This document shows, piece by piece, positions 24,796-35,466 of a stretch of 64,000 nt of DNA (the stretch's first letter is position 1; every line of letters begins with the position of its first letter). Under the pieces are notes generated by a model that was not told where the DNA came from, made no database searches, and saw only the letters and a list, made by a program, of their open reading frames with translations. A program made the translations under genes and the position numbers. Source of the DNA: Candidatus Hydrogenedentota bacterium. GTDB taxonomy: Bacteria > Hydrogenedentota > Hydrogenedentia > Hydrogenedentales > JAEUWI01. The stretch spans positions 1 through 64,000 of the forward strand of contig JAEUWI010000006.1 in assembly GCA_016791475.1 (NCBI GenBank), read 5' to 3'.

Positions 24796-27700
24796 TCAGG
24801 AACTGGCGCCTCCCCCCGCCGGGGCGCCTTCACCCTGCTGCGATTTCAAAAGCTCCAGCCGGTCGGTCCACTGTCGATTGCCCGGCTCAAGTTCGGCGGC
24901 TTTCTGAATCGAAGTGATCGCGGCATCGAGATTCCCCAGTGCGGCATGGGCCTGGGACAGGGTATCCTGGACGTTGGCGCTGTTGGGTGCGGACACAGCG
25001 GCCTCCTGAGCGAGTTTCAACGCCTCTTCAAGATTCTTGTTGGAAGTGATGTAACGCATCGCGAGGTTGTTCTTCGCCGCGATCATGTCCGGCGCGAGGC
25101 TGATAGCCCGCTTGTAGTTCTCCTCGGCGAGCTCCGCCACGCCACTGACATCATAGACCATCCCAAGACGGAACAGCAGGTCCGCGGTGACGTCGGGCCG
25201 TTTGGCGAGCTCTTCCAGGATGCTCCGCGACTGGTCGCGGTAGGCGGTATTCTTGAGCCGATCCGAAAGCTGATACCAGGCAAGTGCGAGGGCGCCGCGC
25301 TCGTCGAGCGACTCCGTCGGAACGAGCGCCGCGGCTTCATTCAACCACCGTGCGGCCGTGGCTTCGTCTTGGATAACGAGGGTGGCGAGTTCGACCCACG
25401 CCATCCGAAATACCGGCTCGGCGAGACGGGGACGAAGCAGATTCTCAGCCTCTTCAACGCGACCGCCCGCGATGAACGCCTGGGCCTGGCGTGTAACCAC
25501 CATGGGATTGTCAGGAGATTCCTCGGCATAGGTCTTTATGGTCTCCAAGGCTTCGGAGGATTGACCTAACTGGATCTGGGCATTGGCGATCATGAAGTCT
25601 GCGGACTGAGCGCCGAGGGGTGCTCGACGGCGCCACTCCTGGGAAGCGGCCAGGGCCTCGGTCCAATTACCCGCCGCCGCATAGGCCTGCGCAGCCAAGA
25701 CGGCCGGCTCGACGGCCTCGGGAAACTCGCGCATGGACCGGGAGGCCACCTCCGCGGCTTCCGCGTGGCGGTTCAGCGCGCTGTAGATACGCACCAGTTG
25801 AGTTTCCAGGAGCAAATAGCGGCTCTGATCGGCGATTCGCTTGAAATCCGACGCGAGCCCGGCCAGGTCTCCGGCATTCTTGTCGATGGATTCGAGGGCC
25901 TGAACGGCGTCTTTGAACTGTCCGGGGTTCTCAAACATCGACAGGACGAACGGAAGCGCTTGATTGTTGTCGAGGAGTTTTTGAATCAAGGGAACCTGGG
26001 CGCTTAAGTCTTTGATCGCGGAATCTTCCGGGCATGCCGCACTGGCGTCGGCGATGCGCCGCACAGCCGCGGCGGGGTCGCCGCCGCGCGCCAGGAAGGC
26101 CAGCAGCCTGCGCCACGCGTTGGGGTCAGACTTCGCTTCGGTGACGGCCTGCTCGTACCAGCGGGCGGCCTCTTCCACGGTGCCATGGACGCGGTTGTAC
26201 TCCGCAAGGATCGCGGGACGCTGGCCCGGCTTTAGCTCCAGGGCGTCAAGTCCTTGAAGCACCGCCAGGGCTTCGTCTTTTCGGCCCTGCGTGGCGTAGA
26301 GATCCGCGGCGAGGCCGATGGCGAATTCATTGGGGCTCTCCGCGAGGAAACGCTTGAAAATCGCTTCGGCCTTGTCGAGTTGACCCGCGCTACGATAGAG
26401 TTGGGCCAACTGCAAATCGAGCGGCACCGTATCGCCCTTTTCTTGGTGAAAGGTCTCCAGTATCCCTATCGCCCGGCCAACATCGTTGCCTCGAGCCAGA
26501 ATTCCAGCGGCCCGGCGTCGATCCTCGTCGGTGAGCGACTTGCTCGCAAGCGCCTTTTCCACCTCCGCCTTCGCTCGGTCTGATTCACCGCGAGTGGAGA
26601 GCAGCCGCGCGAGCTCAAAATGCACGCCGGCCATCTCCGGAGCGACTTGCACGGCCTGTTCCAGGCTATCGATAGCGCCCTGAATGTTTCCCAGCTTCTC
26701 CAATGCGGACGCCAGCAAGGTATAGCGCTGGGCCTCCGGCACGGAAATCTGCATGGTCTCGTTGAGCAGTGCGGCCGCTTCCGCGGCGGCCTTGGGTGAG
26801 CTATCGCTCAGCATCATCCATCGGGCCCGGGCGACACGCCAGTTTACCGCGTTCTCTCCGGTTGCGCTCTTCAGACGCTCGATCACGCGGTCGATCAGGG
26901 CCAAATCATTCCAGGCGGATCTGGAATCCAGGATCGTGCGCAGCAACGCGGCGTCGTCGGGCGCCTTTTCCGCTATCGCGACCCAAAGCTTGAGCGCATC
27001 GGCGGAGCCCGTCAGGTCGAGAAACTGAGCCATCGCCGTCTGCCAGCGCAGATCGTCCCCACCCTTGGACGCCGCCTCGGTCAAGAACGCCTTGGCGCCT
27101 TCGGGATCTCCGCTGCGAAGGCGCGACACGGCCTGTGCATAGGCCAGGCCGGGCGTCATGCCGCCGCTCGTGCTGTTCAGTTTTGCGAAGCAGGCTTCAG
27201 ACAGACCCAAGCCGTGCTGGTCGCTGAGCTGCGCGAGCTTCAGCAGTGTGCTCTCGGGAAGCTTCGCATCGCCCTGCAACGCGGACTGCACCAACTCCGT
27301 TGCGGCAGTCTTGTTGCCCTCCAGGGCGCGCAAATGAATCAAGATGGGCAGCGTACGCGGCTCGAAAGGCTGAACGGACTGGACCTGCTCGCAGAGCTTG
27401 AACAGCTTTGCCCTGTTTTCCTCGTTCAGACCTTCGACGTTGGCGCCGATGATCTCGGCGCCGGCCGCGGCCACGCCCGCGTTCTGGGGCGCGCGCTGCA
27501 TCGCCGCCTGCACCAGGGCGAAGGCCTCGCCATGGCCACCGCTCGCGGCGAAGAGGGTGGCGCTTCGAAGGATGGGGTCAATCCAGGCGGGTGACGCTTT
27601 GATAGCATTTTGCAGGGAGGCGAGAGCGTTGTCGCGCTCCCCCAGTCGCTCATGGGCCAACCCGACGAAATAGTGAAAATAGGGATTGCCCTGATCATTC

Positions 27701-28836
27701 GCCAACGCAGCGGAGCAAATGTCCATGACTTCCTTGGGCGAGGCGTTGTCTCGCAACCACACAACCTCCAGCACGGGAGCCCAGGCATCCGCCTGGGTGT
27801 CGTCAGAACGCCCCTTGAGCTCGCCGACAACTTCTTCAAGAACGGCTTTGTTCCCCTCACGTCCGGCGGCCATACCGCGAACCGCAAGCAAGCCCGACGA
27901 GAGCGTTGAAATCTGCTCCGCTCCCGTCAGCTTCAAGACCTCCGGCGTGTTTCCCACTTCGAAGAGGCGCTGACAATAGAACTGAAGCAGGTCCGGGTTC
28001 TTCGACGCAGGGGCCGTTCGCGCGAGCAGGTTGAGGGACTCACTGTAGAGGCCAAACTGCGCCATGATGGTATTTACGAGCAATACATCTTCCGATTCCG
28101 GCTGCACGATTTCGCCGGCACGCTTCGCCGCTTCCGTGGCTTCATTTCGCCGGCCGGCCATTTCCAGTGCTAATGCGCGAATAATAGAGTAGCCCGCCTG
28201 CTCATGGTTCAGAGCGGCCTGAGAATCCGGGTAAGCGAGTAATTCCGGTGTCTCGGCTCCATTGCTCTGCATCAGGGTGAGCACCAGCACGTGGTCACGG
28301 GTGCTTTCCGGCGCCAGTTCCGTAAGCCTCCGGGCGATTTCCAAGGCTTCGTCAAACTTGCGATTCCGTGTCAGCGCTCCGGCCTTGGCGCGCAAGGCTT
28401 CCAGGTTCTCGGGCTCATCCTGCAGGATTTTGTCCGCGAGATCCAGGGCCTCCTGGCCGTAGCCGGTGAGCGAGTAGAGTTTCATCAAATCCAGCCTGGC
28501 CTCCCGGTGCCCGGGATCAACCGACAAGACCTGAAGGAATAGGCCTATGGCCTGGCCAATATGCTTGCCGTTGGGGAGCGGTACGTTCATACGGGCCCGG
28601 GCGTACTCGTAGACCGCCTCGGGATCTTTATCCTGGCCATAGCGCTGAAGATAGCTGCCGATTTGATGTAGTGCGTTGCTGTAGTCCTCGCGCGCGATGG
28701 ATGCCATGCCGAGCTCCCTGTTTTCCAGAGCTCGCGAATTCAGCATCTGCTGGCGGACCAATACAGCGCCACCGCCGCCGACGATTACCACCGTGAAAAG
28801 TGTGGTCACAGCAATAATGCGGTGTTTCTTGCGCAT
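24796..28836 (-). CDS. Giant TPR protein, PrsT-like, of the exosortase/EPS locus
   Basis: The protein has 1346 residues. A single N-terminal membrane helix (about 8-27, VTTLFTVVIVGGGGAVLV) is followed by TPR-type helix pairs almost throughout, for example EALDLADKILQDEPENLEALRAKAGAL. The C-terminus is Gly/Ala-rich. Large TPR proteins of this kind (PrsT family) recur in exosortase/EPS loci and are thought to scaffold export machinery in the periplasm. CAGGAG lies 7 nt before ATG 28836. It is the last gene of the long minus-strand EPS cluster, with a possible terminator between it and the kinase-like gene upstream, so it may have its own promoter. Confidence 0.8.
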   Translation of the reverse strand: MRKKHRIIAVTTLFTVVIVGGGGAVLVRQQMLNSRALENRELGMASIAREDYSNALHQIGSYLQRYGQDKDPEAVYEYARARMNVPLPNGKHIGQAIGLFLQVLSVDPGHREARLDLMKLYSLTGYGQEALDLADKILQDEPENLEALRAKAGALTRNRKFDEALEIARRLTELAPESTRDHVLVLTLMQSNGAETPELLAYPDSQAALNHEQAGYSIIRALALEMAGRRNEATEAAKRAGEIVQPESEDVLLVNTIMAQFGLYSESLNLLARTAPASKNPDLLQFYCQRLFEVGNTPEVLKLTGAEQISTLSSGLLAVRGMAAGREGNKAVLEEVVGELKGRSDDTQADAWAPVLEVVWLRDNASPKEVMDICSAALANDQGNPYFHYFVGLAHERLGERDNALASLQNAIKASPAWIDPILRSATLFAASGGHGEAFALVQAAMQRAPQNAGVAAAGAEIIGANVEGLNEENRAKLFKLCEQVQSVQPFEPRTLPILIHLRALEGNKTAATELVQSALQGDAKLPESTLLKLAQLSDQHGLGLSEACFAKLNSTSGGMTPGLAYAQAVSRLRSGDPEGAKAFLTEAASKGGDDLRWQTAMAQFLDLTGSADALKLWVAIAEKAPDDAALLRTILDSRSAWNDLALIDRVIERLKSATGENAVNWRVARARWMMLSDSSPKAAAEAAALLNETMQISVPEAQRYTLLASALEKLGNIQGAIDSLEQAVQVAPEMAGVHFELARLLSTRGESDRAKAEVEKALASKSLTDEDRRRAAGILARGNDVGRAIGILETFHQEKGDTVPLDLQLAQLYRSAGQLDKAEAIFKRFLAESPNEFAIGLAADLYATQGRKDEALAVLQGLDALELKPGQRPAILAEYNRVHGTVEEAARWYEQAVTEAKSDPNAWRRLLAFLARGGDPAAAVRRIADASAACPEDSAIKDLSAQVPLIQKLLDNNQALPFVLSMFENPGQFKDAVQALESIDKNAGDLAGLASDFKRIADQSRYLLLETQLVRIYSALNRHAEAAEVASRSMREFPEAVEPAVLAAQAYAAAGNWTEALAASQEWRRRAPLGAQSADFMIANAQIQLGQSSEALETIKTYAEESPDNPMVVTRQAQAFIAGGRVEEAENLLRPRLAEPVFRMAWVELATLVIQDEATAARWLNEAAALVPTESLDERGALALAWYQLSDRLKNTAYRDQSRSILEELAKRPDVTADLLFRLGMVYDVSGVAELAEENYKRAISLAPDMIAAKNNLAMRYITSNKNLEEALKLAQEAAVSAPNSANVQDTLSQAHAALGNLDAAITSIQKAAELEPGNRQWTDRLELLKSQQGEGAPAGGGASS

Positions 28837-28955: not shown

Positions 28956-31424
28956 TCACGATGAGACTTCGGTCGGATTCATGGACGCCGAGTGTACCGT
29001 GGAGAGCCATACGGACTGGGCCAGCGGTCCATAACCGGAGACGGGCTCAAGCAGCTCGTCCCACGGGACACTCTCGTCCGCCATCTTCGCATTGGCCTGG
29101 GAGAGCTTTTCCCGCCCATTGCTGGATACGGTCGAAGACGAGAACTTGGACCGCTCGAGATCCATCGCATCGGCGCGATTGAACACCAGGCCCACCACGG
29201 GAACACTCAGCTCATTCAAATGTTTCAAGGCGCGCTGGACATCGCTCTCCGAGTCGCCGCGCGACGCCATCATAATCACTCCGTCGGCACACATGCACAT
29301 TATCATCGCATCCGACAGGCCGGGCACCGGTCCCGAGTCGATCAGAATTATATCGAACATCGGACGCAATTCATCGAGCAGCTTGCGAAAAGCAACGGGC
29401 GACATGCTGTGTGAGTTGGCCATGGTTCTCCGCGAAGAGGGAAGAATGCTCAGACCGGGGATTCCAATATCGGCGAGACAGTTTTCGACATGTTCGCCGT
29501 TCAGCGCGTCGGCAAGGCCGAGACCAACATCCTTCTGCATCGCAAGGCCGTCTTGCAAATCATTCTCACTGATATAGCCCAGTTCAATCAAGGCATGGCC
29601 TATTGGACGTCCCGTCTGCCGGGCCACCTGAAGCGCGTGGCGCGACTCCTCCTCCGTGATCACCTCATAGGTTCGAAGTACGTGGCCCAGCTTGCGCCGG
29701 CCCGTGGCGCCCGTCCGCCGCGTCAACCCGGTACCCACCACATCCCCATCGATGATCAACGTACGCGTGCCGGCGGTGGCGAAGGAGATACCCAGGGAAA
29801 GAGCGAAGCTGGTCTTTCCCGCACCACTGCAGGACGCGGTGACGGTCAAACACAGGGACTCATTGGGGGGCATGTGCGCATGGAGAATGGTTCGAATATG
29901 GTGGACCGAATGGGCCGCCGCGATCACCTCGGAGGTGCTCCCGAGCGCCTGGGGAAGCAGCGGAAGCGCCCCAAGCATACGCGGCTGAATCGCCTGCGCA
30001 TCGGTGATGTCGCGGATGTTCGACCGGAGGAATCCGAGCCCCATTACGAGCGCAACGCCAAGACCGGCGCCGGCAAGGCCGCCCAGTATGGTCAACTGCA
30101 TACGGCGTTTTGCGTTTGAGGGACTTCCAGGGACCTCCGCCTCGCTCAAAATGCTCACACGCCCGCTTTCAGAACCTTCCAGCGAAAGCTGTTCTATGCG
30201 GGAATTGGTCAACTCGAGATCGGCTTCAAGACGCGCCAATTCCTTTTGATGGGACTTCAGCGTGTAGTCCTTGCCCCCTATCTCGATCATCTTCTTGTTG
30301 GCGTCTTCGAATAACTTCTGGAGACCCTCCACTTTTGATCTCAGTTGGGCCACAGTCGCGGCCGTAGGCGCGATACGTTCCGAGTCGACTGAAGGTTGTG
30401 TCGCCAGAAGTGGACTTTCCCGAAACGCGGTTGCATATGTTTCAATTTCAGAGTTCTGCTTCTCCAGGTCCGTAACCGCCTGCCGGTATTCCGAGCGAGT
30501 TTCGGGACGTCGCAATGTGGATTCGAATGCCCCTATTTGGCGCTCCAATTGGCTGCGCTGCTCGAGCAGACTCCGCATGTGGCCGTCGATCAACGCGATT
30601 TCTTCCACCGTCAGAGTGGAATAGTCAAGCACATCGGGTGAGTCCTCACCTCCGGCGACCGCTTCGAGGGAGTTCAGCAGGAGTTTTGACGCTTCCAATT
30701 CGGTTTGTATGGTCTGCAGGTTACTCATTTCAAACTCGAATCTGCCTGCCAGATCGTCGGAACCATACTCCTCCGAAATCTTCTTGATCTGCTCATCCAG
30801 CGCCGCGATCTGTTTGCGCAGGGCATTCGCCCGGTCATCAAGAATCTTAAAGCGCTCACCTTCACGCTGTACATCGCTATCCACATAAACACGTCTGTAG
30901 GCGTCTACGATCGACTTGGAACCCGCCCGAGCCCGCTTTGGGTCCTTATCGCTGAAGTTGACCACAATCAACTGACTGCTCTTGGGCTGAACCACAGACA
31001 GTCCCTTTGTGAACTGCTCCAGTTCTTCAAGCGAGAATTTGCCGCCAGCTTCCCGCCAAGGCTCGCTCTGCATCGCCATCTCCATCACTCGCCTGCTGCT
31101 TATCAACGAAATCTGAGTCTGGACAAAGGAATCGAACATGGGGACCATGCTGTTCGCGTCGGTCTCGAACAGGATCTTCGGAAGCACGGGAGCAATTCGA
31201 ATCGTCGACGTACTCGTATATTCAAGCTGTACGGCCATGAAGCCGATAGCGGCACCGATTGGCCCTAAGACTATCGCCAGTCCGATGGCTAGCAGGTAAC
31301 GTCCCCGCAAGAACTTGTGCAGGAGCAGCAGAGGATTTTCGGCGGGTTTCTGCTGGTCCGTGTATTGGTAGGTGTGGCCACCCCCTGCCCCCCCCCCGGA
31401 GGAGGGAATAAGTGCGTTGCTCAT
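28956..31424 (-). CDS. Wzz/BY-kinase-like polysaccharide co-polymerase with inserted MshEN-like region
   Basis: The protein has 822 residues from ATG 31424, which overlaps epsI by 4 nt (ATGA). A Wzz domain with flanking membrane helices (about 40-62 and 440-460) and long coiled coils comes first. A CpsD/BY-kinase-type ATPase follows: Walker A SCSGAGKTS (531-539, K537), Walker A' LIIDGD (556-561), Walker B IILIDSG (692-698). Between A' and the usual GL.D.L.GE motif lies an extra stretch (about 579-631) with LGHVL, ITEEESRHALQ, GRPIGHALIELGYISENDLQ and LAMQ, the pattern of MshEN/GspE-N c-di-GMP-binding repeats. The usual C-terminal tyrosine cluster is absent. A G10 tract lies in codons 10-14. 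Confidence 0.85.
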   Translation of the reverse strand: MSNALIPSSGGGAGGGHTYQYTDQQKPAENPLLLLHKFLRGRYLLAIGLAIVLGPIGAAIGFMAVQLEYTSTSTIRIAPVLPKILFETDANSMVPMFDSFVQTQISLISSRRVMEMAMQSEPWREAGGKFSLEELEQFTKGLSVVQPKSSQLIVVNFSDKDPKRARAGSKSIVDAYRRVYVDSDVQREGERFKILDDRANALRKQIAALDEQIKKISEEYGSDDLAGRFEFEMSNLQTIQTELEASKLLLNSLEAVAGGEDSPDVLDYSTLTVEEIALIDGHMRSLLEQRSQLERQIGAFESTLRRPETRSEYRQAVTDLEKQNSEIETYATAFRESPLLATQPSVDSERIAPTAATVAQLRSKVEGLQKLFEDANKKMIEIGGKDYTLKSHQKELARLEADLELTNSRIEQLSLEGSESGRVSILSEAEVPGSPSNAKRRMQLTILGGLAGAGLGVALVMGLGFLRSNIRDITDAQAIQPRMLGALPLLPQALGSTSEVIAAAHSVHHIRTILHAHMPPNESLCLTVTASCSGAGKTSFALSLGISFATAGTRTLIIDGDVVGTGLTRRTGATGRRKLGHVLRTYEVITEEESRHALQVARQTGRPIGHALIELGYISENDLQDGLAMQKDVGLGLADALNGEHVENCLADIGIPGLSILPSSRRTMANSHSMSPVAFRKLLDELRPMFDIILIDSGPVPGLSDAMIMCMCADGVIMMASRGDSESDVQRALKHLNELSVPVVGLVFNRADAMDLERSKFSSSTVSSNGREKLSQANAKMADESVPWDELLEPVSGYGPLAQSVWLSTVHSASMNPTEVSS
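31388..31397 (-). repeat. Poly-G(10) tract near the start of the Wzz/BY-kinase gene
   Basis: Ten consecutive Cs on the plus strand (Gs in the coding strand) encode the Gly run in SSGGGAGGG, about nine codons after ATG 31424. Slippage by one base would truncate the protein. Such tracts are typical of phase-variable genes but are also a common site of sequencing error. Confidence 0.7.
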
Positions 31425-32179
31425 GAGTCTAATCCCGCCCGGACAACCTCTATCCAGGGCGCTGCTGCCTGGAAGAGCATGTCGTAGGCCTCGTTTTGTT
31501 CGCTTTCCGAGAGACCGGAATCCACGATCAATTGTACACTGGCGCCGCCACAAAAGGTGTAACGGCGATCGCGAGCGGCCGTTTCGAGCAGGCCCATGTC
31601 CGGGGCGATGCGCCCGTCGGGCAGCACGGTAAAGTGGGTCACATGGAGTGAATTGGACTGCTGCATGAGGTCGTATGCAAAAGCGTAACGGGTCGTGCTG
31701 AACGCACCGTAGCTCTTTGGGACGGAGCCGGGTTCGGAGGAGATCTCACTCCAGCCCTGCGACGGATAGCAAACCGGCGGGTAGTGACCGAGCAGACTTC
31801 GGGCATCGGCGCATTGAACCAATAACAGGGTCGCGGTGTGCTGGGTCTTGTAGTTGCGGTATACACGACTCAACGTGCAGTTCGCGTCGAGGATTTTGAG
31901 CGCCTCCTGCCGGATTTCGGTATCTTTACCAATCCAGTCGCCGATGTTGTACGGGATCTTGTCGAGGGCCGCACGAACACGGGCGTGATACTCGTCCACG
32001 CCGGCCGGGGCAACTTCCCGCGCAGCCTGGTCCGCGGCAATGCCCGCCAACAGGGCGCAGGTGATTATGGGGACGATAAATCTTAACACTTCGGGCTCCA
32101 CAACGGGTTGTCCGGACACCGCAGGTTTCAATGAGACAGTTTCGATGCGACGCGGACGCCGCGCTATTCGCACGCTCAT
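31421..32179 (-). CDS. epsI: Exosortase-associated protein EpsI
   Basis: The protein has 252 residues from ATG 32179; an in-frame GTG at 32188 is also possible. One membrane helix (about 33-49) anchors a periplasmic domain with the EpsI hallmark GHYPPVCYPSQGW (about 131-143), preceded by the DWIGKD region that also recurs in EpsI. EpsI is either fused to or encoded beside exosortases and is needed for EPS production in some systems. Here it follows the exosortase fusion by 27 bp and overlaps the kinase-like gene, which confirms an exosortase-type EPS locus. The biochemical role is unknown. Confidence 0.88.
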   Translation of the reverse strand: MSVRIARRPRRIETVSLKPAVSGQPVVEPEVLRFIVPIITCALLAGIAADQAAREVAPAGVDEYHARVRAALDKIPYNIGDWIGKDTEIRQEALKILDANCTLSRVYRNYKTQHTATLLLVQCADARSLLGHYPPVCYPSQGWSEISSEPGSVPKSYGAFSTTRYAFAYDLMQQSNSLHVTHFTVLPDGRIAPDMGLLETAARDRRYTFCGGASVQLIVDSGLSESEQNEAYDMLFQAAAPWIEVVRAGLDS

Positions 32180-32206
32180 CTGAGGCACACAGGCACCCAG
32201 ATTTCT

Positions 32207-34831
32207 TCAGACTTCTGAGGGACGCACGTCCGACAAGGGGGTGGGTTTCGACGCTTCCGGCGGGTCCGGATCATCCTTCAAAGCCCACGAGATCAACGCT
32301 CGAAAACCGATCAGGCCAAACAATGCGACGGGCATCATCGCCCAGCCCATGAGATCGTGAAATTGCTCCGCAAACTCAACCTCGGTGTGCCCGTACAGCC
32401 AGACCGTGGGCACCAGACGAATAATATTCACGACGATGGCGATAAGGGGACTGGCGAGCACAATCGCGAATCGAGCCCGCGTGCTCAGATCCGTGGAAAA
32501 CGCATAGAAGAAGCAAACCAGCGCGAGGGCGAACACCATGCGTATACCATTGCAGGCTTCGGCAATGCCCACCGAGACTCCGTTCACAATCAGCACTTTC
32601 CCGCTCAACGTAACCGGTTCGCCAAAGGTCTGCAACAGGTACGCCGTTATCTGGGCGGTGACCGTCTGCATCGGGGGCGCGATCTGCGCCCGCAGGATGG
32701 CCGGAACGGGAATCAGGAAGATGAGCACGGCAAAGGCCGGCCAAAGGCGAAGGAATGCCTCGCGTCCAACGATGGTTACGATACAGCCGACCACGATACA
32801 AATCGCACCAAAATGCCAGATACTCTGGAAAAGTTGAAGGTCGCCATAGGCAAATAGCAACCAGCCGAGCGCAACCAACGCCGGACCCAGCCAGGTACCC
32901 ACGCGCCGGGCTCCCGCCGCAAAAGTTCGTCTCGTCCACGCTATCCAGATCGCGGCTGGAATCGCCAGGAGCACGTGGCTGGATTCTTCGTCGGTAGTGC
33001 CCAGGCGATAGATGTCGCGCCACGCGTCGGCGGTCACCCAGAAGCCCACGAGGGCGAGTAAGGCCGTGACAATCAGTATCGGCTTCCGCCAATACCCGCG
33101 TGGTGCGAGTGCCGCATCGGCCTGTTTTGTCGGTGAATTCTCCGCAACCTGCATCGTTGTATCGCCCTCAGATTCTGCCGCAACGGGACTAAACGAATTC
33201 CTGAAACTGACGCCTGACTCCTCAATTGCGGAGAATGCGCTCTCCGCTTTGGCCGCCCACGTCTCGCGGACAACACGCTCGCGCAACCGCGACGCCTCGG
33301 GGGGACTCTCCAACACGCGACGGATTGCCTGAACAAAGCCCTCCGCATCCTCCGCAACTTCCACATGGTCGCTGTAGCGCGACAGCTCATCGAAGGGCGT
33401 GCTGACAACCGGACGTCCAGCCGCCAGATACTCCTTCAGCTTGACCGGGTTACAGGCCTTGATCCACGGGCTCCGGTTCCACGGCATGATCAGCACGTCG
33501 CAGGCCGCCATATACGACGCGACCTCTTCATAGGGCTTGCGCCCCAGAAAGTGGACATTGCCCAGCGTGCACCAGTCCGGCGGCAAAGAACACCCGCCCA
33601 CCATCACAAAAGAACAATCCGGCATCGCTTCCGCCACCCGCACAAACAGCGCCGGGTCAAAGGTGTGAATGTCGATTCCACCCACAAACCCAATCCGCGG
33701 ACGCGCAATCTCCCGAAGGTCCTCCGGCCCATCCCCCGCCGGCGCCGACGCAAACGAATCATAGTCCACGCCGTGATCCACAAAAACCGCCTTGCGACAT
33801 TCCCCCTGCTCATCCGAAAAGACGCTGGTGGAACAGAAAAGCGTCAAATCGGCACGCGACTTTAGAGAAAGGTCATATTCTCTGATCAGCTTGGTATCCA
33901 CACCAGGAAAGTGTTCCATCCGGTCGGTTCGCTGATAGACCATGCCCCTGGCCGGTAGACGATCAACGATCTCGGCCGCAGGAGGACAGGCCACCCAGAT
34001 CAAGGGGTTCTTGATTCCCATCCAGCGGGCCGCATCCATCACCTGCTCCGCCAGCATAGCCTTTCCCCAAGCCGTGCGGTGGAATACCGGTATTGTTACC
34101 GGACTAAACACACCGAAATTCTCTCGAATCAAGCTGAGCCCGCGGTTCCAGCTCCGCAGCTTGCGGGCAACTCGCTTGAAAAAAACCCGCCCCTCGCCAA
34201 CCGACGGCGTTCGCATCCCAATGGAATTCACGTACATCACCGGCATACGCCGACTGAATTCCCGCATCATTTGGATGTCATGTTCGTCGCTATCAACTGC
34301 GCTCCATACCGACCCACCAAAACAAATAATTCCATCAACATCTTTAAGGCTGCGAGCGTCGTCCAGAAAACCACCAATCACGCCCAGCAACTCCTCCGAG
34401 GCCTCCAGAGTCGTGGCATCAAACTGCGACGCGGCCAGCGCCGCATCGATCTTTTCCGGTATCTCCTGATCCGTATTCGCCACGAAGACATTCGGAAGAT
34501 TGCAGAAACGTTCGCAAGTAGCCACCTGGTGATCGTTTCTGTGCTCCCCAAAATCCACGCGACGAGGTAGGATGACCAGGGGCTTGCCCGCCTCAATCGC
34601 CGAAATTATCGTGCCCATCCCCGCATGCGCAACCACAATGTCCGCTCGGTTGAAATAATCCCGGCATTCCGCAGGCGAAATGCGGGCCCGATTCGCCATG
34701 TGGGCCGGACGGTAGGTTCCTCCGCAAGTCTGAGCAAAAACATCACCCCGACCTGCCGACTCTGCCCAATGGTCCACTGCAGCGATCAGCCGGTCAAAAG
34801 GTAACTGCGTCCCGACGGTAACGAAGATCAC
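32207..34831 (-). CDS. Three-part fusion: Alg13/PssE-like glycosyltransferase, GT-B glycosyltransferase, exosortase
   Basis: The protein has 874 residues from GTG 34831, overlapping the PssD-like gene (GTGA). Residues 1-150 are an Alg13/PssE-type catalytic domain (FVTVGTQLPFDRLI, HAGMGTI at 69-75). Residues 165-540 form a GT-B glycosyltransferase with IGFVGGID (380-387) and the C-terminal donor-site region NPVKLKEYLAAGRPVV; it is paralogous to the enzyme at 37471-38688. Residues 580-850 are a multi-helix exosortase with catalytic-type Cys760 (EACNGIR), Arg805 (NIIRLVPTVWLYGH) and His825 (FHDLMGW). The frame is open throughout. An internal ATG at 33154 (M560) with a weak GAGGG could allow the exosortase to be made separately. 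Confidence 0.88.
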   Translation of the reverse strand: MIFVTVGTQLPFDRLIAAVDHWAESAGRGDVFAQTCGGTYRPAHMANRARISPAECRDYFNRADIVVAHAGMGTIISAIEAGKPLVILPRRVDFGEHRNDHQVATCERFCNLPNVFVANTDQEIPEKIDAALAASQFDATTLEASEELLGVIGGFLDDARSLKDVDGIICFGGSVWSAVDSDEHDIQMMREFSRRMPVMYVNSIGMRTPSVGEGRVFFKRVARKLRSWNRGLSLIRENFGVFSPVTIPVFHRTAWGKAMLAEQVMDAARWMGIKNPLIWVACPPAAEIVDRLPARGMVYQRTDRMEHFPGVDTKLIREYDLSLKSRADLTLFCSTSVFSDEQGECRKAVFVDHGVDYDSFASAPAGDGPEDLREIARPRIGFVGGIDIHTFDPALFVRVAEAMPDCSFVMVGGCSLPPDWCTLGNVHFLGRKPYEEVASYMAACDVLIMPWNRSPWIKACNPVKLKEYLAAGRPVVSTPFDELSRYSDHVEVAEDAEGFVQAIRRVLESPPEASRLRERVVRETWAAKAESAFSAIEESGVSFRNSFSPVAAESEGDTTMQVAENSPTKQADAALAPRGYWRKPILIVTALLALVGFWVTADAWRDIYRLGTTDEESSHVLLAIPAAIWIAWTRRTFAAGARRVGTWLGPALVALGWLLFAYGDLQLFQSIWHFGAICIVVGCIVTIVGREAFLRLWPAFAVLIFLIPVPAILRAQIAPPMQTVTAQITAYLLQTFGEPVTLSGKVLIVNGVSVGIAEACNGIRMVFALALVCFFYAFSTDLSTRARFAIVLASPLIAIVVNIIRLVPTVWLYGHTEVEFAEQFHDLMGWAMMPVALFGLIGFRALISWALKDDPDPPEASKPTPLSDVRPSEV

Positions 34832-35466
34832 AGGATTGCTCCCTCATAGTACGGCCCCTCATTGCTCCGCAGGTGCTTCCACTGGGTCAGCCAAAGGTCG
34901 GCAAAGCGTCCCACATGGCGACCGGAAGCAGAAAGTCGCTCGGAATTGGCAATGCTGTCTACCCAGATCGTCCGTGAACCGAGCAGCAACTTGGACCACG
35001 CCAGCCCGAAGAAGCCCGGCGCGGCGCCCGTAGAAATGACTACATCGGGCCGCTCACGCAAAACCACAAAAACCATCTGGGCCGCAAGCAAAACCAACGC
35101 AAACTTATCGGTAAGGTTGGCGTCTATTACAGAATAGAACCGCGCGCCATCAACCTCCACCCGATAATCGCGGCTCACCGTGACGTAAGAGACATCATGA
35201 CCATCAAAAGCTCTGGAAAGTTTGCGTAATTGCACCCAATGCCCCCCGCACGATGCGATTGCCATCACCCGCAGACGGGCATTGGGCGAGTACACCTCAC
35301 CCCCCCCCAATCGCCCCGCGTCAAACAACGACACTACGCCCAAAGCCTCTTCGCACATAGCCTCAAACCCTCTGGATGCTAATCCCCTGACGGCGATCAC
35401 CATCCCCTTGTTGCGCACAGCGCAGCACCTAAATACCGGCCCTTCGCATGACCGATCCGACCGCAC
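34828..35466 (-). CDS. PssD/Alg14-like glycosyltransferase membrane subunit
   Basis: The frame encodes up to 212 residues. The conserved part starts near residue 66 with MAIASCGGHWVQLRKL, followed by DVVISTGAAPGFFGL, the Alg14/PssD pattern. In yeast Alg13/14 and bacterial PssE/PssD, the Alg14 partner anchors the Alg13 catalytic subunit at the membrane. Here the Alg13-like partner is the first domain of the overlapping downstream fusion, so the pair fits. The start is uncertain: GTG 35466, ATG 35403 or ATG 35265 are possible, and the family usually begins just before the ASCGGHW motif. A G9 tract lies within the N-terminal extension. Confidence 0.82.
   Translation of the reverse strand: MRSDRSCEGPVFRCCAVRNKGMVIAVRGLASRGFEAMCEEALGVVSLFDAGRLGGGEVYSPNARLRVMAIASCGGHWVQLRKLSRAFDGHDVSYVTVSRDYRVEVDGARFYSVIDANLTDKFALVLLAAQMVFVVLRERPDVVISTGAAPGFFGLAWSKLLLGSRTIWVDSIANSERLSASGRHVGRFADLWLTQWKHLRSNEGPYYEGAIL
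35300..35308 (-). repeat. Poly-G(9) tract in the 5' part of the PssD-like gene
   Basis: Nine consecutive Cs on the plus strand (coding-strand Gs) encode the Gly run in RLGGGEVYS. The tract lies about 35 bp before the ATG at 35265, so slippage would alter an extended protein or the leader of a shorter one. Confidence 0.65.

Follow-up and report, generated by a model that had tools for sequence, protein, structure and literature searches.

Polysaccharide synthases are known targets of cyclic di-GMP (c-di-GMP), and control of such an enzyme through an MshEN domain has been proven for NfrB of Escherichia coli (PMC8669469). MshEN has also been reported in the exopolysaccharide biosynthesis of Methylobacillus (Wang et al. 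2016, PMC5013675); judging by the origin of the EpsG family, the protein concerned is probably EpsG. The N-terminal stretch of the EpsG model TIGR03029 (model positions ~4–75) matches many ORFs of secretion-ATPase size at about residues 2–79, and EpsG-type kinases appear, from their sequence, to carry an MshEN-like N terminus. The open-licence literature yielded no paper describing MshEN in a BY-kinase.

The tolerance of the MshEN ligand site to substitution has been studied in MshE of Vibrio cholerae, where substitution of Q32 carries a penalty of about fivefold at most, and a lost hydrophobic contact one of more than tenfold (PMC5013675). In the GSPII-B domain of PilF, K or L is possible in place of the first Arg; K9 and a residue other than Arg at position 38 are tolerated (PMC11731258). 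GSPII-A of the same protein is a non-binder in which the two Gln, along with other residues of motif II, are substituted; a return to the consensus was not by itself enough to recover binding (PMC12002112).

The window analyzed here is a 64,000-nucleotide stretch from a Candidatus Hydrogenedentota bacterium (contig JAEUWI010000006.1, positions 1 to 64,000). One of its ORFs, whose boundaries are exactly those given in Table 1, encodes a Wzz/GNVR-like chain-length protein fused to a BY-kinase-fold ATPase. The N-terminal half matches the NCBIfam models for EpsF (E=2.2e-11) and for the XrtA-system chain length determinant (E=9.8e-7), both below cut-off, while Pfam Wzz and GNVR match the same part under their gathering scores. 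The C-terminal half matches the NCBIfam polysaccharide tyrosine-autokinase-type domain with a score under the curated cut-off, and the domain surrounding the insert has profile matches to solved BY-kinases (CapAB, E=3e-17). Against the EpsG model, the full protein scores 57 bits, far below the cut-off of 313.8, and the part of that model matched by the insert described below is the N-terminal one.

Table 1. Features of the insert-bearing ATPase gene and its neighbors (window positions; aa, amino acids).
Feature	Position	Strand	Basis and remarks
Chain-length-determinant/BY-kinase-fold ATPase with internal MshEN-like module, 822 aa	28956..31424	-	Sequence, NCBIfam, fold and profile matches
N-terminal co-polymerase part (Wzz/EpsF-like, coiled coil, GNVR, TM), residues ~30-470	30015..31337	-	NCBIfam, Pfam
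Walker A SGAGKT, residues 533-538	29811..29828	-	Sequence; G536, K537, T538 invariant across orthologs
Walker A' LIIDGD, residues 556-561	29742..29759	-	Alignment; both Asp (D559xD561) kept, following Arg of DxDxR lost
Inserted MshEN-like module, residues 578-630	29535..29693	-	NF053729, phmmer, AlphaFold and Foldseek
MshEN motif I KLGHVLRTYEVITEEESRHALQVA, residues 578-601	29622..29693	-	Degenerate: G18E, L25S, Q32A (MshE numbering)
MshEN motif II PIGHALIELGYISENDLQDGLAMQ, residues 607-630	29535..29606	-	Mostly intact; R38P, L39I
Walker B IILIDSGP, residues 692-699	29328..29351	-	Alignment; DSGP in place of canonical DxPP
C-terminal tail, residues 756-822, without tyrosine cluster, with conserved GPL..SV motif	28959..29159	-	Ortholog comparison
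EpsI-like exosortase-associated protein	31421..32188	-	TIGR02914 E=9.6e-7, below cut-off; start/stop overlap with ATPase gene
Fusion of PssE-like glycosyltransferase, GT4-like part and exosortase	32207..34831	-	8TM_EpsH above cut-off
PssD-like glycosyltransferase	34828..35466	-	Match below cut-off; synteny
Large TPR protein, PrsT-like	24796..28836	-	TIGR02917 E=3.3e-50, below cut-off; synteny

An earlier, sequence-only reading of this gene had placed an MshEN-like stretch between Walker A' and the GL.D.L.GE motif, at about residues 579–631. Profile, sequence and predicted fold all bear out its presence there, with the boundaries shifted by one residue. The NCBIfam model NF053729 ("c-di-GMP_motif, MshE-related"; cyclic di-GMP-binding domain-containing protein) covers the module at all 53 model positions, scoring 41.7 bits in the full protein and 47.1 bits (E=1.4e-12) for the isolated module against a curated cut-off of 38 bits. 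When PDB sequences were searched by phmmer, the module matched PilF of Thermus thermophilus (E=2.8e-7) and MshE of V. cholerae (5HTL, E=7.3e-6). Pfam, by contrast, returned no MshEN match for the region; its best match there, FumaraseC_C (E=0.02), was set aside, as fumarases ranked below MshE and PilF in the fold search. AlphaFold predicted the module alone as four helices with a core pLDDT of about 90, and the top PDB match of this model in Foldseek was MshE with c-di-GMP (5HTL_B; 54 columns, rmsd 0.7 Å, 37% identity, probability 1.00), followed by 5HTL chain A and then the GSPII domains of PilF. The Foldseek E-values were weak (best 0.036), as commonly happens with modules of this size, and the significance of these matches rests on the sequence evidence. 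Residues 578–630 thus exceed the profile cut-off and form a predicted four-helix bundle while lacking the full set of motif contact residues; fold and profile make the module an MshEN member, although its ligand-binding site is incomplete.

The surroundings of the module are of BY-kinase type by profile and fold. In an alignment of the protein with ten BY-kinases of the ordinary type, the insertion stands out as a single clean block of about 58 residues, absent from all ten, lying past the helix after Walker A' and ahead of the GL.D.L motif (GLADALNGE in the window protein). A profile built from the orthologs gave the same picture: BY-kinase chains match both flanks of the block, and MshE (5HTL) matches inside it (106–160, E=1.9e-5). 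The AlphaFold model of the ATPase domain with its insert, made from six sequences, is of modest confidence (mean pLDDT 59, pTM 0.60); it places helices 109–115, 121–134, 138–144 and 150–160 between the Walker A' strand (85–89) and the remaining domain, and Foldseek matches it to the kinase domains of CapAB, Wzc and VpsO (E ~1e-10). It is hardly credible, given these results, that the segment is an ordinary BY-kinase loop with a chance similarity to MshEN, or an assembly artefact. The missing Pfam match would fit that reading, which is refuted as regards a chance loop by the NF053729 and 5HTL matches, the predicted MshE-like bundle and the alignment with ordinary BY-kinases. An assembly chimera was rejected because the same insertion occurs in eight separately assembled genomes, and a frameshift was also rejected as its source.

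Orthologs were found in 8 of 68 Hydrogenedentota genomes, representing 4 of 44 genera and three families, each with E <= 1.2e-164; at 1e-25, these 68 genomes contained no other matches. A wider search of 386 relative genomes at 1e-20, in which five candidates per genome were scored, yielded no further orthologs. A single-protein scan of genome contigs found no relatives, and an alignment-based scan of genome contigs found six. A match on a Paludisphaera plasmid seemed to span the insertion, and the protein proved to be an ordinary BY-kinase without it. All eight orthologs carry an insertion at the same place, which suggests a single ancestral event. NF053729 scores above cut-off in five of the eight and reaches 37.4 bits in a sixth.

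Conservation of the insert also bears on whether it might be a relic, that is, a structural spacer without a regulatory role that has been drifting since ligand binding was lost. In one genus (g33; orthologs G044 and G050), motif II is eroded and shortened and the insert is only 30% identical to that of the window protein, which speaks for drift. Outside this genus, however, the insert is as well conserved (53–81% identity) as the kinase core (48–83%), and it has invariant positions, such as K10, G12, H13, L55, G58 and Q62 (alignment numbering). A mere relic is therefore improbable.

The leading rival to the docking or regulatory account that we favor is c-di-GMP gating. According to this explanation, the module is a functional sensor through which bound c-di-GMP turns the co-polymerase's ATP hydrolysis or ring assembly on or off, making polysaccharide export track the c-di-GMP level. 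Numbered as in MshE (Wang et al. 2016, PMC5013675), the window insert reads K9, L10, G11, E18, S25, L29, A32, P38, I39, G40, G47, L54, L58 and Q61, keeping 9 of the 14 key positions. Six orthologs with alignable motifs, the window protein included, have K9, L10, G11, L29, A32, G40, L54, L58 and Q61 in common; retention of L10, G11 and L29, along with the motif II residues Gly40, Leu54, Leu58 and Gln61, speaks for a sensor, as do the above-cut-off NF053729 scores and the NfrB precedent. With nine key positions and the MshEN fold kept, the ligand site may still work, which counts against the account we favor, as do the tolerance of PilF GSPII-B for K9 and a non-Arg residue 38 and the limited effect of Q32 changes in MshE. 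Moreover, the host genome has 17 GGDEF and 23 MshEN matches, and c-di-GMP signaling is therefore likely present, although none of the GGDEF matches lies on the window's contig. Two loci of the same genome, G000:C64:15844-17349 and G000:C21:367-525 (L053, L057), hold further MshEN fusions: one is a 636-aa frame that combines MshEN and GGDEF, the other a frame starting like a Ser/Thr kinase and containing MshEN.

Set against a working sensor are the motif I losses shared by the same six orthologs (Q32 to A, G18 to E, D or N, and L25 to S, A or F), the decay of motif II in genus g33, the more than tenfold cost of losing hydrophobic contacts in MshE and the failure of PilF GSPII-A to bind. The window insert is intermediate between the changes tolerated in MshE and PilF GSPII-B and the non-binding GSPII-A. 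Judged from the residues kept and lost, physiological c-di-GMP binding by the insert is possible but rather doubtful, and gating of the co-polymerase by c-di-GMP is likewise a serious minority prospect. Of the c-di-GMP-gated BY-kinase proposed from sequence, what stands is a real and conserved insertion; the gating is putative.

A further question is whether the ATPase is a kinase at all. BY-kinases are defined by the motifs EX2RX2R, DxDxR and DxPP. The window protein shows the P-loop fold of BY-kinases, including Walker A and variant forms of Walker A' and B. It keeps GAGKT in Walker A, the two Asp of Walker A' and the Asp of Walker B. Alignment with BY-kinases shows that DxPP, EX2RX2R and the Arg that follows Walker A' have been lost, the positions aligned with EX2RX2R being mostly HxxHxxR or QxxHxxR. 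None of the eight ortholog tails has a C-terminal tyrosine cluster, each having zero to three scattered Tyr, as compared with at least three Tyr within 15 residues in 36 of 40 other BY-kinase-like ORFs sampled, many of them with runs of seven or eight. In the insert ATPases, the tail (28956-29159, minus strand, in the window) ends in a conserved motif, GPL..SV(WLS), which was unseen in the sampled tails of ordinary BY-kinases. Among other fused BY-kinases of Hydrogenedentota (L076-L090, L099-L102), many end in an unusually regular run of seven or eight consecutive Tyr, e.g., RRHYYYYYYYYDD. The missing cluster makes the label "kinase", which the sequence-only reading had applied, doubtful in its functional sense: from the residues present, ATP binding by the insert ATPase is likely and tyrosine autophosphorylation unlikely.

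The gene belongs to a recurring neighborhood. Its start codon overlaps, within the sequence ATGA, with the stop codon of the EpsI-like gene upstream, and a PrsT-like TPR gene lies directly downstream of it at the orthologous loci examined. As far as contig ends allow, the recurring order is PssD-like glycosyltransferase, PssE/GT/exosortase fusion, EpsI-like protein, insert ATPase and PrsT-like TPR protein. The glycosyltransferase-exosortase fusion and the insert ATPase occur in an identical set of 8 of the 68 genomes, and this co-occurrence, together with the conserved gene order, indicates that the ATPase is a fixed component of one exosortase-linked polysaccharide system. The fusion itself is one unbroken ORF, and its full-length glycosyltransferase/GT4/exosortase form is conserved across several genera.

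The explanation that we favor, with moderate confidence, is that a tyrosine-less BY-kinase-fold ATPase hosts an MshEN-derived regulatory or docking module whose ligand site is half-degenerate. The co-polymerase of the exosortase-linked cassette would consist of a Wzz-type periplasmic part and a cytoplasmic BY-kinase-fold ATPase. A complete MshEN_N four-helix module would have been gained once, in the ancestor of a few Hydrogenedentota genera, at the loop immediately after the Walker A' helix. With the ATP-binding residues retained and the autophosphorylation tail lost, and kinase activity presumably lost with it, the protein is most likely an ATP-dependent, phosphorylation-independent regulator of assembly or export. 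Lying beside the nucleotide site, the module, with its origin in a c-di-GMP sensor, would most likely modulate ATP turnover or ring assembly by docking or allostery; its first half-site is degenerate, and it may still be capable of residual or weak c-di-GMP binding.

It is also conceivable, though on balance unlikely, that a BY-kinase-derived co-polymerase working without tyrosine phosphorylation is under the control of c-di-GMP, or of some other ligand, by way of the MshEN module set into its catalytic domain beside the nucleotide site. If true, this would be a direct second-messenger gate on a polysaccharide chain-length and export ATPase. A c-di-GMP-sensor fold inside a co-polymerase ATPase would shift the control point to export and chain length, and that these very proteins have lost the tyrosine cluster suggests replacement of the customary phosphorylation switch. 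The finding further brings into view the MshEN-like N terminus of EpsG-type kinases, which has been little studied.

The sequence-only reading had regarded such a control mechanism as not described for this family. The internal insertion is new, but the pairing of an MshEN-like stretch with a BY-kinase has precedents in N-terminal form, apparently in EpsG and in a protein of another Hydrogenedentota genome (L088:5903-6805), and MshEN in Methylobacillus and in NfrB provides further precedent. Like the window protein, EpsG (TIGR03029; chain length determinant tyrosine kinase, Methylobacillus methanolan type) joins MshEN-like and BY-kinase parts within an exopolysaccharide system; its MshEN-like stretch is N-terminal, whereas the window module is internal. 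The L088 protein, a stand-alone 300-aa MshEN and BY-kinase (NF053729, 52.4 bits; TIGR01007, 150.8 bits; both above cut-off), is the only N-terminal combination of this kind among the 68 Hydrogenedentota genomes. It has the same two domains and lies beside an exosortase and a chain-length protein, but differs in its N-terminal MshEN with motif I intact, its separate chain-length protein and its tyrosine-rich tail. The last Gln of its motif II is Ala, and an EpsI-like gene adjoins it as well. When plasmids were searched with the N-terminal stretch of MshEN and kinase, no match emerged, and of the Cupriavidus plasmid matches, the one examined in full (L096) has no EpsG-like N terminus.

Finally, the comparison can be extended to each part of the protein. 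With MshEN_N of V. cholerae MshE (5HTL; NF053729), the module shares its 53 residues, two 24-residue motifs, 5-residue spacer and predicted four-helix bundle; it differs in lying within another catalytic domain rather than at a terminus, in having no MshEN_C subdomain and in its degenerate motif I. With Wzc, CapAB and VpsO, the ATPase shares its fold, Walker A, the acidic residues of Walker A' and B and the Wzz-type fusion, but it has the insertion after Walker A' and is without the Tyr cluster, EX2RX2R, DxDxR and DxPP. NfrB likewise ties MshEN to polysaccharide synthesis (PMC8669469), although it is a glycosyltransferase with a C-terminal MshEN, conserved motifs and measured binding (Kd 1 µM). 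What sets the window protein apart from all of these is an MshEN insertion within the catalytic domain of a tyrosine-less BY-kinase homologue.
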